Below, in pieces: positions 4,595 through 18,590 of a DNA stretch of 64,000 bases (its first letter is position 1; the number at the start of each line of letters is the position of its first letter). The position numbers were made by a program, and so were the translations under genes. The notes beneath the pieces are model-generated. The model worked only from the letters and a program-made list of their open reading frames with translations. It did no database searches and was not told where the DNA came from. The stretch is from Candidatus Acidiferrales bacterium. GTDB taxonomy: Bacteria; Acidobacteriota; Terriglobia; Acidiferrales; UBA7541. The stretch spans positions 1 to 64,000 of the forward strand of contig JASHQB010000038.1 in NCBI GenBank assembly GCA_030037775.1, in the 5' to 3' direction.

Positions 4595-7165
4595 TCACGC
4601 CTCCTTCACCCTCCTCTCCAACTCCCTCGCAATTTCCTCCGCATTCTTCTCCGCACCAAACCTCACCGGCTCGCCAATCGTCACCTTCACCGCTCCGTGA
4701 CGCACCGGCTTCAACCTCAGCCACGGATTTGCCAGGCGCGCCTGCGCCAGCTCCCACAATCCATCGATGCGCACCGGCACCACCGGCAAATCCAATTTCG
4801 TTGCCAGCAATCCAATCCCGCCGCGAAATTTTCCTACTTTCCCGTCCTTCGTCCGCTCGCCCTCGGGAAACACCAGCACGTTCCATCCCTTGTCCGCCAA
4901 CTCTCCCGCGAACGCAAAACTCTCGCGAAACCCGGTCATCTTCGGCAGCGGAAACACATTGAACAGCGCAATCACCAAGAAATAATCCATGCGATTCACC
5001 GCGCGCATGAACCATCCCATCCCTGACGGATGCCGCATCCCCCACAGCCGCTCCGCCTCCATCGCCGTCGCCAGCCGGTTGCGAAATTTCCGCGGCAGCG
5101 CCGCCAGCACGCACCCAATGTCCACGTACGTCACGTGATTCGCCACCACCAGCACCGGCCCGCGCACGCCCCGCAAATTCTCCCGCCCGCGAATCTCCGG
5201 ACGCGCCAGCAGCATCGTCGCCGGCCACGTCAGCGCGTAATACACGGCCAGTCGGATCCACGTCACCGGCCATCGCTGCGCCCAGCGCGAAAATTTGTGC
5301 GTCTGCGGACGCGCCCTCGGCTCGCGCAGCAATTTTTCCAGTTCGCCAACCGTCTTCGCCTCCGCAAATCGCGTTTCGCTCAGGTCCACCTGATACTTTT
5401 CTTCCAGCGCGCTCATCAACTCCACTTTGTCTAGCGAACTCATCTGCAAATCCCGCTCGAGATTCGCATCGCCGCTCACGTTCCCGCCCCGCCCCATAAC
5501 TCGCGCAATTAGTTCGCCGAGCGATCCCTCTGCCCCGGCGCTTTGGGTCGCGGACCCATCTACTCGCGTTCCAAATTCCCGCGCCGCCGCATCGCGAATC
5601 TTCGGCAGCATCGGCTTCTGCGTCGGAGTCCGCGGGAAATCCGCCTCCTTCCACACCACCCATCGCCGCATGCGCTGGAATTCCGCTAGCCCCGCGTTTG
5701 CTCGCTCCACAATTCTCGCTGCATCCACGCTCGCATCCCCCAGCAGCAGCACCGCGCACGCCTCCGCATTTCCATCTTTCTCGATTCCCACCACCACCGC
5801 GTCCCGAACGCCCGGCTGTTTCCGCAGCTCCGCTTCCAAATCCTCGGGATAAACATTCATTCCCGCCGGCGTCACAATCACGTTCTTGCGTCGCCCTTTG
5901 AAATACAAATTTCCCTGCGCGTCCACCTCGCCCAAATCACCGGTGCGAAACCATCCTTCTTCGCCGGCCACCGGCTCCAGTTTCGCGCCCTGAAAATATC
6001 CCGACGCCACGTTTTCCCCGCGCACCAGGATTTCTCCGCCTTCACCCAGCTTCATTTCCATCCCCGGCAGCAGCTTCCCAATCGACCGTTTTCCCACGCT
6101 GAACGGGTTGTTCACGCTCACCAGCGACGTCGTTTCCGTCAGCCCGTAGCCCTGCACCACCGCATATCCCAGCCGGTTCCAGAAAACTTCCACTTTTTCG
6201 GGCAGCGCCGCGCCGCCAGAAATAAACGCCCAGAATTTCCATCCCAGCCGCCGGTGAATTCTCCGAAACCTCCACACTCGCCGCAGAAATTTCTCGCCAT
6301 CCGCTCGCGCAAAATTTCTTTGAAGCTTTCCTGTGCGCCCTGCCGCCTCGATTTCCCGCTCGATCTGCCCCTCGAGCGACTCGATCATCCGCGGCACGCT
6401 CACCACCGCGGTCACGCGCTCGCGCGGGATCGCCCGCGACACTTCCGCCGGGCTCATCGTGTCCCAGAAAATCACCGTCCCGCCCAGCAGCGGCGGAATG
6501 AACATCCCCATCAACTGCCCGAACACGTGGCTCAGCGGCAGCAGATTCAAAAATCGCAGCGGATGAAAAAATCTCTCGTACTTCAAATATTTCCCGATCT
6601 CCGTTTCCATCGGCTCGATGTTCGCCAGAATGTTTCCGTGCGTCAGCACCACTCCGCGCGGCTCCGCCGTCGTCCCTGAAGTAAAAACAATCTCCGCGGC
6701 ATCGCTGCGTTTCGCATTGCTCATGGCAATCGTCAAGCGTCGCGCAGTGTCCTCGTGATCCTCTGTATCTCCCTCTCCCAGTTCTTCCAGCGTCACGCTC
6801 TCCCGCCCAATGCCGCTGACGTCCAACGCACGCGAATGCACGACCAATTTCGCATCTACCGTCGCTGCCACGCGCACCACAAAACTTGCATCCGCCGCTT
6901 CATCCATCGGCACCACCACCGCGCCCGCCAGCACGCACCCGAAAAACGCCGCCACCCACTCCGCGCAATTCTCGCCCCACAACATCACGCGCTCGCCCGG
7001 AGCTACACCGCGCTGCCCCAGCCTCGCCGCAAAACTCCGCGCCACGCCGCCGACGCGCGCGTAGCTCCACCGTTCCATCCGGTAGCCGCGCCGGTACGCA
7101 ATCGCGATCTCGCTTCCGCGCCGCGCGTACTCCTCGATAAATTCAATCAGTGATTGCCGTGCCAT
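4595..7165 (-). CDS. trifunctional AMP-dependent acyl synthetase / acyl carrier protein / PlsC-type acyltransferase fusion
   Basis: AMP-binding motif VFTSGTTAEPRGVVLTHGN; ACP motif DLQMSSLDKVELMSALEEKY; PlsC motifs NHVTYVD (HX4D) and FPEGERTKDG. Confidence 0.9.
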   Translation of the reverse strand: MARQSLIEFIEEYARRGSEIAIAYRRGYRMERWSYARVGGVARSFAARLGQRGVAPGERVMLWGENCAEWVAAFFGCVLAGAVVVPMDEAADASFVVRVAATVDAKLVVHSRALDVSGIGRESVTLEELGEGDTEDHEDTARRLTIAMSNAKRSDAAEIVFTSGTTAEPRGVVLTHGNILANIEPMETEIGKYLKYERFFHPLRFLNLLPLSHVFGQLMGMFIPPLLGGTVIFWDTMSPAEVSRAIPRERVTAVVSVPRMIESLEGQIEREIEAAGRTGKLQRNFARADGEKFLRRVWRFRRIHRRLGWKFWAFISGGAALPEKVEVFWNRLGYAVVQGYGLTETTSLVSVNNPFSVGKRSIGKLLPGMEMKLGEGGEILVRGENVASGYFQGAKLEPVAGEEGWFRTGDLGEVDAQGNLYFKGRRKNVIVTPAGMNVYPEDLEAELRKQPGVRDAVVVGIEKDGNAEACAVLLLGDASVDAARIVERANAGLAEFQRMRRWVVWKEADFPRTPTQKPMLPKIRDAAAREFGTRVDGSATQSAGAEGSLGELIARVMGRGGNVSGDANLERDLQMSSLDKVELMSALEEKYQVDLSETRFAEAKTVGELEKLLREPRARPQTHKFSRWAQRWPVTWIRLAVYYALTWPATMLLARPEIRGRENLRGVRGPVLVVANHVTYVDIGCVLAALPRKFRNRLATAMEAERLWGMRHPSGMGWFMRAVNRMDYFLVIALFNVFPLPKMTGFRESFAFAGELADKGWNVLVFPEGERTKDGKVGKFRGGIGLLATKLDLPVVPVRIDGLWELAQARLANPWLRLKPVRHGAVKVTIGEPVRFGAEKNAEEIARELERRVKEA

Positions 7166-15022: not shown

Positions 15023-15901
15023 CTATTTGATTTTGGCGATGCGGCCGTCGGCGGAGGTGGGGTATTTGTCGAACTGGGCCGCATCGTGGCCGGGAATGAC
15101 GCGGTCAGGATTGCCTCCGGCGAGCTGGATCATGCGCGCCTGATTCTGAATGTTGGCGGGCCAGTAGTCTTTGGTGAACGTGGCGCTGGCCTTGTGCTCG
15201 GCGAGATTGCGGTAGAGATAGCAATTGTCGGAGGCGAGGACGAAGGGCGGATTGCCGTCGACGCGCAAATACTGTGAAGCGAAAGTGTGATGGCCTCCGG
15301 TGTAGGCGCGAATGCCGGGGAAGATTTCGACGTTGTCACCGTTGACGAAGCGCACTCGGCCTTCGGTGTTGAGTTTCACGAGCTCCTGAATATCGGCGGG
15401 ATCAATGCCGCCGTGGTCGCCGCCGGGCTGCCAGGCCGGGCCGGTGTAGTAGCGATACTCCTCTTCCTGAATCCAGACGGTCGCTTTGGGGAAAAGATCG
15501 ATGCCGCCGAGATGGTCCCAGTGCGCGTGGCTGATGACGACGTCAGTGATTTGGTCAGGCTGGACGCCGGTGAGTTTTACCGCTTCGTCGGGGCGAATGT
15601 AGCCGGTCGAGGGGAAGTATTTCAGGAACGTGTCGCGGTGATAGCCGCTGTCCAAGAGGATGTTGCGGCCGCCGCCGCGAACGAGCCAGACGGCCATGGC
15701 GAGGGTAATCTTTTCCTTGGGTGCGCCCATGACGAGGTTAGCAACGTTGTCCGGGGCGGAGGCGTAGCGAATGGCCTGAATGGTGTAGTCGGGAGTGGCG
15801 GCACTTTGCGCGCGGGCGCTATGCGATGCGACGACGGGAAGAAAAGCGACGGCGAGGAGAATCAGTAGCGTGCGAAGGGGCGGAAGGCGTCTCAAGTGCA
15901 T
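15023..15901 (-). CDS. MBL-fold metallohydrolase (N-acyl homoserine lactonase family-like), secreted
   Basis: Signal peptide; ISHAHWDHLGGIDLFP; GGHHTFASQ; VIPGHDAAQF. Confidence 0.9.
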   Translation of the reverse strand: MHLRRLPPLRTLLILLAVAFLPVVASHSARAQSAATPDYTIQAIRYASAPDNVANLVMGAPKEKITLAMAVWLVRGGGRNILLDSGYHRDTFLKYFPSTGYIRPDEAVKLTGVQPDQITDVVISHAHWDHLGGIDLFPKATVWIQEEEYRYYTGPAWQPGGDHGGIDPADIQELVKLNTEGRVRFVNGDNVEIFPGIRAYTGGHHTFASQYLRVDGNPPFVLASDNCYLYRNLAEHKASATFTKDYWPANIQNQARMIQLAGGNPDRVIPGHDAAQFDKYPTSADGRIAKIK

Positions 15902-15976: not shown

Positions 15977-16180
15977 TCAGTTCCGGCGGAAGTCTTCGAG
16001 AGTAAGTCCTGCATCCTTAAGAATCCGAAGAAATAGTCCTTTCGGCAGATCTCTCGCATGGACAGGAATCACAAGTGTTTTTCCGTTGGAATGTTCGAGG
16101 ATGAGGTGCGAGCCGGTCTGACGAGCTTTGTGGTAGCCGTGGCGAAGGAAGAAACGGATGAGTTCGCGAGCGGGAACCAT
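15977..16180 (-). CDS. hicA: HicA family type II toxin
   Basis: 67 aa; LIRFFLRHGYHKARQTGSHLILEHSNGKTLVIPVHARDLPKGLFLRILKDAGLTLEDF. Confidence 0.88.
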   Translation of the reverse strand: MVPARELIRFFLRHGYHKARQTGSHLILEHSNGKTLVIPVHARDLPKGLFLRILKDAGLTLEDFRRN

Positions 16181-16408
16181 TCAGTCAAGCGCTAGCGTGA
16201 CCGTCTCAGCATAGACGGTGCGAGCTTCTGGAACAGGCTTGCCCTTTTTGCGGCATTGTTGAATGTAAAGCCGCATCGCTTCAAGGATGCTGATCTTGGC
16301 TTCGTCGATGGATTTGCCAAGGCCATACACGCCCGGGAAATCCTCGCTGTAGGCATAGTAGCGCTTTCCTTCGCGCTCGACGGTAATCGGATAGCTGTAG
16401 AAGGTCAT
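16181..16408 (-). CDS. hicB: HicB family antitoxin
   Basis: 75 aa; YYAYSEDFPGVYGLGKSIDEAKISILEAMRLYIQ; stop TGA abuts hicA ATG. Confidence 0.88.
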   Translation of the reverse strand: MTFYSYPITVEREGKRYYAYSEDFPGVYGLGKSIDEAKISILEAMRLYIQQCRKKGKPVPEARTVYAETVTLALD

Positions 16409-16551: not shown

Positions 16552-17316
16552 CTACGAAAGACGGTAGTGGCCGGGGGCAAGGAAGGTGAGGAAGCCGAGG
16601 TCGCGCAATTGCTGCAATTGTTGGCGGATTTTGGGCTTTACATGCCGATTCAGCACATGGAGTGCCCGGAGTTCCGCTTCGTGTGCATAGACCTCGTCAA
16701 GATGAAATTCCCGCTTTTGAAGGGACTCAACAATCAACAGGACGTCCAGAGTCCAACCACGCGCTTTGCTTTTCACGCGATGGAGGGGCTTCAAACGTTG
16801 AAACTCCCGCCGCACTGCTACTGACGATGCTGGAAGTCCGTCCGAGACAACAGGGATTCGTGCGCTCCTAGGAATTGCGCCAAGCAGGATGTCACATCCG
16901 ACCCAATCGTGTCGCTCCGCGGCGGGAGAGAGCGGCGGCCGTTTGAAAATATCTTTCAGGGAATACGCAAAGCGAGGGATCAGAGTCAGATTGCTCACAG
17001 TCCATTTTTTCATGTCATAGTGGAGGGCAAAGATGTTCGGGGTTTGGTCCTTCCGAATGGCTTCCACCATCTTGGAATAGGCGGCGTCGGCGATGCGCGC
17101 CCCGAATGGGGACCTACCGCTTTTCAGCTGGAATCTTTCCTCGCATAGCGGGCAAACAAAATCGCTCGCAGGAGTGTTGGGTTTAAGAGGGTCGAGGCGT
17201 GGAGAAGAGCAATTGGGACAGTATAGATTCGCTACCGCCCAAGGCTCTGTCGAGACGCGGGCTTTCTGCGTCGGGTTCTTGTATTGGGGCGCTGGAACGG
17301 GCAGTGTCAAATCCAC
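16552..17316 (-). CDS. DpnI-like methyl-directed restriction endonuclease (GTG start)
   Basis: 254 aa, collinear with DpnI as recalled: YK(N)xxQKAR(V/I)xTExW, YCPNC, P-x-x-DFxCxxC, FxLKS, PLxPxAxRxxWxGC(D/N)I, SxxRGWTxxxL, C-terminal KxKIRQQLQxLRDxGxxxF-xxGxYR. Confidence 0.92.
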   Translation of the reverse strand: MDLTLPVPAPQYKNPTQKARVSTEPWAVANLYCPNCSSPRLDPLKPNTPASDFVCPLCEERFQLKSGRSPFGARIADAAYSKMVEAIRKDQTPNIFALHYDMKKWTVSNLTLIPRFAYSLKDIFKRPPLSPAAERHDWVGCDILLGAIPRSARIPVVSDGLPASSVAVRREFQRLKPLHRVKSKARGWTLDVLLIVESLQKREFHLDEVYAHEAELRALHVLNRHVKPKIRQQLQQLRDLGFLTFLAPGHYRLS

Positions 17317-17328
17317 GCGGGGATTAGA

Positions 17329-17674
17329 TCACGTTCCGTCCTTCAGATAAATCTCCGTTTCGGTCTTAATGATGAACATAACTTCTGACGAACTGCGCGA
17401 GCTGAGAGCGAACTTGTTCCAGGCTTCTTCGAGGGAGTCGGCGGGAGCGGAGTAAATGACTTCACGGCAAAGCGAGCCGACGAAATAATAGTTGCGTTCT
17501 CGGCGAACGAGCGAAGATGAGGTCGATGCTGGCGGCGGGGATGGCGGCGAGGATTTGGAGGCAGTCGCCGTGGAAGATTTTGATGTGATGGCGGGGGTCG
17601 TGGAAGGCGGGAAGGGGAAGTTCCGCGTGGGAGTTGCCGGAGAAGGACGGAGATGGAGTGGGGGCGCGAGGCAT
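17329..17674 (-). pseudogene. truncated amino-methyltransferase N-terminus joined out of frame to a short C-terminal ORF
   Basis: 70-aa frame reads HHIKIFHGDCLQILAAIPAASIDLIFA, i.e. the segment just before a DPPY motif, then breaks to RSPRTQLL; a second frame continues RNYYFVGSLCREVIYSAPADSLEEAWNKFALSSRSSSEVMFIIKTETEIYLKDGT to a stop 12 nt before the DpnI-like start. Confidence 0.6.
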
Positions 17675-17888: not shown

Positions 17889-18590
17889 CTAGCGCATGTT
17901 GACGAGACGCGCGAGGAAGAAGGCAGCGGAGGCGGCGAGGCCGCCGACGAAGGCGGTCTGGAGCGCGCCGCGCAGAGGCGAGATGCCGGTGAATTTGGCC
18001 TTGAAGAAGCCGAAGGCCAGCAGCGCGAAAAGAGTGACGCCGACGGAGAGCCACAGCGCGGTGAAAATGTGGCCGAGCAGCATGTAGGGCGCGAGAGGAA
18101 TCAGGCCGCCGACGATGTAGGAGGCGGCGATGGTGGCGGCGCTGCGCGCGGCGCGCGTGGGGTCGGGCTCCTCAAGGCCGAGCTCGAAGCGCATCATGAA
18201 GTCGACCCAGCGCTTCTGGTCGGAGACGATGGCGTTGACGACGGGGCGGACGTGCTCTTCGGCGAGGCCGTAGCTGCGAAAGACTTTCGCGACTTCCTCT
18301 TCTTCCTGGTCGGGGATTTCGACGGTCTCGTCGATTTCGCGCTGCACCTCGGAGGCGTAATGCTCGGCGTCGGTCTTGGCGGCGAGGTAGCCGCCGAGGC
18401 CCATGGCGATGGAGCCGGCGACGATTTCAGCGAGGCCGGCGGTGACCACGATGCGCGCGGAGGCGATGGCGCCGGTGATGCCGGCGGCGAGGGCGAAGGG
18501 CACGGTGAGGCCGTCGGCCATGCCGATGACGATGTCGCGTACCGAGGCGACGGAGATGGAGTGCCTTTCGGTGTGGGCGATGGTGGGCAT
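17889..18590 (-). CDS. VIT1/CCC1 family transporter
   Basis: SVRDIVIGMADGLTVPFALAAGITGA, GLGGYLAAKTDAEHYASE, and two C-terminal TM helices. Confidence 0.9.
   Translation of the reverse strand: MPTIAHTERHSISVASVRDIVIGMADGLTVPFALAAGITGAIASARIVVTAGLAEIVAGSIAMGLGGYLAAKTDAEHYASEVQREIDETVEIPDQEEEEVAKVFRSYGLAEEHVRPVVNAIVSDQKRWVDFMMRFELGLEEPDPTRAARSAATIAASYIVGGLIPLAPYMLLGHIFTALWLSVGVTLFALLAFGFFKAKFTGISPLRGALQTAFVGGLAASAAFFLARLVNMR

Follow-up and report, generated by a model that had tools for sequence, protein, structure and literature searches.

The window (the whole stretch of DNA that was analysed, 64,000 nucleotides) comes from a soil bacterium of the Acidobacteriota and carries an intact DpnI-type gene in which a glutamine stands in place of the active-site glutamate. 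Directly upstream of this nuclease gene lie the pieces of a decayed methylase gene, which the original prediction had overlooked, just as it had left out the strand (minus) of the nuclease. The locus is composed of the following features:

16552-17316, minus strand: DpnI-like endonuclease gene, 254 aa, GTG start, stop included
16771-17316, minus strand: N-terminal PD-QxK catalytic domain (PF06044), approximately residues 1-182, with the border placed as for DpnI in PMC4117772
16555-16770, minus strand: C-terminal winged-helix domain (PF17726) with KIRQQLQQLRD, approximately residues 183-254
17161-17163, minus strand: codon of Asp52, equivalent to DpnI Asp53 in the alignment to DpnI
17128-17130, minus strand: codon of Gln63 (CAG), replacing DpnI Glu64 in the alignment to DpnI
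17122-17124, minus strand: codon of Lys65, equivalent to DpnI Lys66 in the alignment to DpnI
17510-17620, minus strand: methylase remnant, N-terminal 37 aa, ending in DLIFA, the start of motif IV (76% identity)
17344-17511, minus strand: methylase remnant, last 56 residues, from the C-terminal extension (61% identity), lying one frame off the N-terminal piece

A HicA toxin (15977-16180) and a HicB-like antitoxin (16181-16408) are encoded on the minus strand just downstream of the nuclease. The flanks hold genes for a VIT1-family protein (17889-18590) and a metallo-beta-lactamase-fold protein (15023-15901), again on the minus strand and unrelated to restriction.

Judged from its sequence, the window protein is a member of the DpnI family, homologous over both the catalytic and the winged-helix domains. 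In a phmmer search against the PDB it matched DpnI (4esj and 4kyw) collinearly over residues 11-252 (E 2.1e-56), with its segment SDFVCPLCEERFQLKSGR aligned opposite ADFYCNHCSEEFELKSKK of DpnI. Both Pfam domains scored above cut-off (PF06044, DpnI, 169 bits; PF17726, DpnI_C, 90 bits) and PADLOC called the protein mREase_II (3.8e-63); the NCBIfam search assigned no family to it. An AlphaFold2 model of the window protein, for which 43 window and locus sequences served as input (pLDDT 96), superimposes on 4esj with TM 0.85-0.91. These results bear out the original prediction of a 254-aa protein collinear with DpnI that keeps its zinc-finger cysteines and winged-helix tail and reads D-x10-Q-x-K for D-x10-E-x-K: the zinc-binding cysteines (C33, C36, C55, C58) are retained 4/4, and the DpnI columns D53/E64/K66 are occupied by D52, Q63 and K65. 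Equivalents of the m6A cleft residues (Leu129, Arg135, Trp138, Gly140) and of the G-contact Arg126 are all present, while DpnI Gly137 is changed to Asp and Ser17 to Thr. Compared with R.DpnI of Streptococcus pneumoniae, the protein thus shares the zinc cysteines, the catalytic Asp and Lys, the GATC and methyl contacts and the winged helix, but differs in Gln63 for Glu64, in overall sequence (about 37% identity) and in the decayed DpnA-like methylase upstream.

Homologues were collected from GTDB species genomes, Acidobacteriota sets, and plasmid, phage and viral collections, the last three of which held few relatives, mostly of the winged helix only. The active-site column of the alignment (57 rows, fragments included) contained 36 Gln, 18 Glu, one His and two gaps, and the tree of the 50 full-length rows comprised 32 Gln and 18 Glu types, a distribution requiring two state changes. 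One Gln clade unites the Gln types of Acidobacteriia with a single long-branched thaumarchaeal member, and the other consists of three Bacillota sequences. In the family to which the host belongs, all full-length homologues recovered carry Gln, and the same class also holds Glu types (six sequences from another family). A unique mutation or sequencing error is ruled out by this lineage-wide occurrence. Alignment and tree indicate that Gln is a stable natural variant, normal in a conserved branch of the DpnI family, and no lesion. Because it is normal in 32 of the 50 tree members, a strict Glu does not define the family, even though the triad of the window protein departs from D53-E64-K66. The original prediction had put its emphasis wrongly on a replacement in a single gene, since the whole family of the host is of this type and the state has two origins on the tree. 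It had also held that a Gln both common and functionally neutral among DpnI orthologues would speak against it, and of these two properties commonness is the one that we found.

DpnI is described as a PD-ExK enzyme (PMC12707154). No QxK DpnI was found in the searched literature, whose passages on QxK concern only other families, although such an absence is no proof. The earlier statement that QxK is known in Mrr/MspJI-type enzymes is supported and extends to BisI: active members of all three families have Gln where PD-(D/E)xK calls for Glu, the same residue as in the window protein, and established examples of QxK enzymes cut modified DNA (PMC12707154 and PMC11347163). No overall homology to these families is claimed, as the DpnI fold of the window protein, with its zinc site and winged helix, is distinct.

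Catalytic and DNA-contact sites were tabulated by group, with residue roles taken from DpnI (PMC4117772). Among the 32 full-length Gln types, the equivalents of Gln18, Asp53, Lys66, Arg126, Leu129 and Arg135 are invariant, and Trp138 and Gly140 are kept in 29 and 30 members, respectively; the exceptions are His/Leu in two methylase-bearing members and Tyr for Trp138 in one. The zinc cysteines are also kept. Closer Gln-type pairs gave dN/dS values of 0.085-0.14 and one more diverged pair 0.23, while a Glu-type pair gave 0.096 and a Gln-type pair without methylase 0.095. Gln-type genes are therefore under strong purifying selection (dN/dS about 0.1). The window gene is too distant for dN/dS, and its differences are concentrated at third codon positions (0.60-0.66 vs 0.30-0.35). 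Its branch on the 50-row tree (0.63) is longer than those of its sisters, and given this longish branch and the Gly137 and Ser17 changes, some decay of the gene may have occurred.

The cassette that the nuclease forms with a DpnA-like methylase, broken in the window and intact in relatives, is a more interesting result than Gln itself. An all-against-all comparison of 21 neighbourhoods revealed only one recurrent real neighbour, a same-strand ORF just upstream of the nuclease that spans roughly 385-460 aa from stop to stop. This ORF is a PF01555 methylase that carries the motifs ADPPYFLSN and NLSCRYFTHATET as well as a C-terminal extension. Sequence identity of the Acidobacteriia methylase amounts to 58% with the enzyme encoded next to drg in Neisseria gonorrhoeae, 52.6% with M2.LlaDCHI (a GATC enzyme of pSRQ700), 52% with the product of the central gene in comparable staphylococcal operons and 48% with a CcrM-like sinorhizobial sequence. 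On sequence grounds, its target is likely GATC. The extension of the Acidobacteriia methylases, LVxRERKYFFVG...IIKTETEIYLAQ (e.g., L114, 8550-9599, minus strand), has no Pfam match and is retained in the window remnant.

A complete or partial methylase is encoded on the strand of the nuclease in 20 of 29 Gln-type Acidobacteriia loci (short fragments, the window and a locus interrupted by an assembly gap are not counted), usually 12-137 bp upstream; among these 20 loci, one methylase lies at a distance of 3.4 kb, and in two the nuclease is split. The 18 other DpnI-type loci examined (six Glu Acidobacteriia, eight other Glu, three Gln Bacillota and one thaumarchaeal Gln) all lack the methylase. 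Methylase presence differs between Gln and Glu Acidobacteriia (Fisher p 0.003), with both traits being clade-level and the observations not independent. Gln is not dependent on the methylase, which is missing from the Gln-type Bacillota. In one genome (L146 of G914), a second, SPPY-type PF01555 methylase (5123-6145) occurs 22 bp upstream of the Gln-type nuclease, the DpnA-like one being the distant copy.

Two known arrangements resemble that of the window. Drg/NmeBII, encoded by the Neisseria dam-replacing gene, belongs to the DpnI family (32% identity to the window protein) and adjoins a DpnA-like methylase gene that carries an internal stop in the gonococcal record inspected, a parallel to the window; however, it keeps Glu64 and has His for Trp138 and Met for Gly140, unlike the window protein. 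In DpnII-type operons (DpnM-DpnA-DpnB; LlaDCHI of pSRQ700), a DpnA-like methylase precedes the nuclease, as in the relatives of the window, but a Dam-family methylase comes first, the nuclease is no DpnI homologue, and the Acidobacteriia methylases bear an additional C-terminal extension.

About 255 codons are missing between the two mutually out-of-frame methylase pieces of the window, and no intact cognate methylase stands beside its nuclease, while many relatives have intact copies. The host genome (91% complete) showed no match to PF02086 or PF01555, the two methylase families searched, so its GATC sites are probably unmethylated. If expressed and active, the nuclease could not be cutting unmethylated GATC, of which the window alone contains 255 copies. 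Nine further Gln-type loci have an intact nuclease with no intact methylase beside it, and in four of their genomes (G926, G948, G935 and G210, 94-99% complete) neither a DpnA-like nor a PF02086 methylase was found. That these nuclease-only relatives are intact and conserved likewise argues against cutting of unmethylated host GATC.

We consider it on balance probable that the product of the window gene is a DpnI-family endonuclease that is catalytically competent, depends on N6-methyladenine, has a PD-QxK site and acts in this host as a stand-alone defence. This reading is favoured because fold and homology are full-length, the key residues are invariant, and Gln, having originated twice, was retained. 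On the model of DpnI, the catalytic domain would bind Gm6ATC through the cleft formed by Arg126, Leu129, Arg135 and Trp138 and cut inside the site, and the winged helix would read a second methylated site. Gln63 would take the place of Glu64 as metal-1 ligand, as in Mrr, MspJI and BisI; as PD-QxK is the normal catalytic site of these enzymes, we infer that Gln-type DpnI enzymes cut DNA. With the neighbouring DpnA-like methylase decayed, the nuclease would serve as a stand-alone defence against GATC-methylated incoming DNA. The Glu-type relative Drg cuts only GmeATC (PMC4269198). The nuclease-only data (four genomes without either methylase, dN/dS of 0.095) fit methyl-dependent cutting and do not fit a conventional restriction enzyme.

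It is unlikely that methylase and nuclease form an ordinary restriction-modification pair, in which the methylase protects and the Gln-type fold has lost or inverted its methyl requirement to cut unmethylated GATC or another site. The methylase-then-nuclease order does resemble that of DpnII-type operons, and the gap between the genes is only 12-25 bp in nine of the 16 loci measured with full-length matches to both. Divergence of methylase and nuclease is moderately correlated (Mantel r 0.34, p 0.0025), a Mrr-type nuclease fills the slot behind the same methylase in genome G937, and the three members with altered Trp138 or Gly140 all bear a methylase. Against such a pairing stand the nine loci and the window with their unaccompanied intact nucleases, the four nearly complete genomes without either methylase, and the purifying selection on the nuclease that persists without methylase. 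Moreover, the methyl cleft is retained with or without methylase, and none of the inspected sites separates the two contexts. GATC avoidance is no discriminator, the observed/expected ratios of methylase-bearing and nuclease-only groups being alike (0.78 and 0.77).

The methyl-dependent cutter must also be weighed against a protein that binds methyl-GATC and does not cut, Gln having abolished metal binding. In DpnI, Glu64 coordinates the metal directly (PMC4117772), and a reader of this kind could coexist with a methylase and would tolerate every combination of methylase and nuclease seen. We nevertheless regard this alternative, which the original prediction had entertained as a methyl-binding non-cutter, as rather improbable: the Asp53 and Lys66 equivalents, needless for a binder, never vary among the 32 full-length Gln types, dN/dS, at about 0.1, matches that of Glu types, and in Mrr, MspJI and BisI a Gln serves as a functional ligand (PMC12707154 and PMC11347163). 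Improbable to a still greater degree is that the window gene is the leftover of a decaying cassette, intact by sequence and out of use. The methylase is the remnant of an out-of-frame deletion, several relatives have the nuclease itself cut down to winged-helix relics, and the branch of the window gene is longer than those of its sisters; however, the 254-codon reading frame is uninterrupted, none of the key residues is lost, and the differences fall mostly at third codon positions.

For the preferred reading of a methyl-dependent cutter, the difficulty lies in the relatives. The coexistence of an intact methylase with a Gln-type nuclease presents an apparent paradox, the methylase seeming to mark the very sites that a DpnI enzyme destroys, and the presence of an apparently GATC-type methylase in 20 of 29 relatives counts against a DpnI-like cutter because the combination would be suicidal if the methylase makes fully methylated double-stranded GATC. 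Possible escapes include a single-strand methylase, another target site, alternating expression and inverted specificity. Pneumococcal DpnA methylates single strands (PMC3573125), and hemimethylated GATC is a poor DpnI substrate (PMC12707154). Tentatively, and with rather less confidence than for the window protein, we suggest that the Gln-type DpnI and the DpnA-like methylase could constitute in Acidobacteriia a self-contained GATC writer-cutter cassette, undescribed in the searched literature, whose nuclease would be either a restriction enzyme of inverted preference or a methyl-dependent cutter tolerating a single-strand or other-site methylase. Resolving the paradox of a GATC writer beside a Gm6ATC cutter would show either a flip of methyl-dependence within one fold or a means of avoiding suicide. 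Furthermore, an extensive naturally occurring QxK branch whose methyl cleft is intact would supply new m6A-dependent enzymes and a way to probe the role of the second acidic metal ligand.

In genome G937, of the same genus as the window, the DpnA-like methylase is followed by a Mrr enzyme (PF14338 and PF04471) and then by a winged-helix relic of a DpnI-like gene (L155, 4464-6755), which indicates an exchange of the nuclease in this slot. Short stretches, ORFs or relics, whose similarity is confined to the DpnI winged helix were seen at L158, L156, L157, L159, L103, L118, L122 and L146, some beside an intact nuclease gene and some beside a broken methylase; they may be relics or small m6A readers. 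Finally, in two related genomes (L142 and L143) a methylase-free Gln-type nuclease is separated by about 20 bp from an upstream ORF that, by eye, we take to be dnaN, the DNA polymerase clamp.
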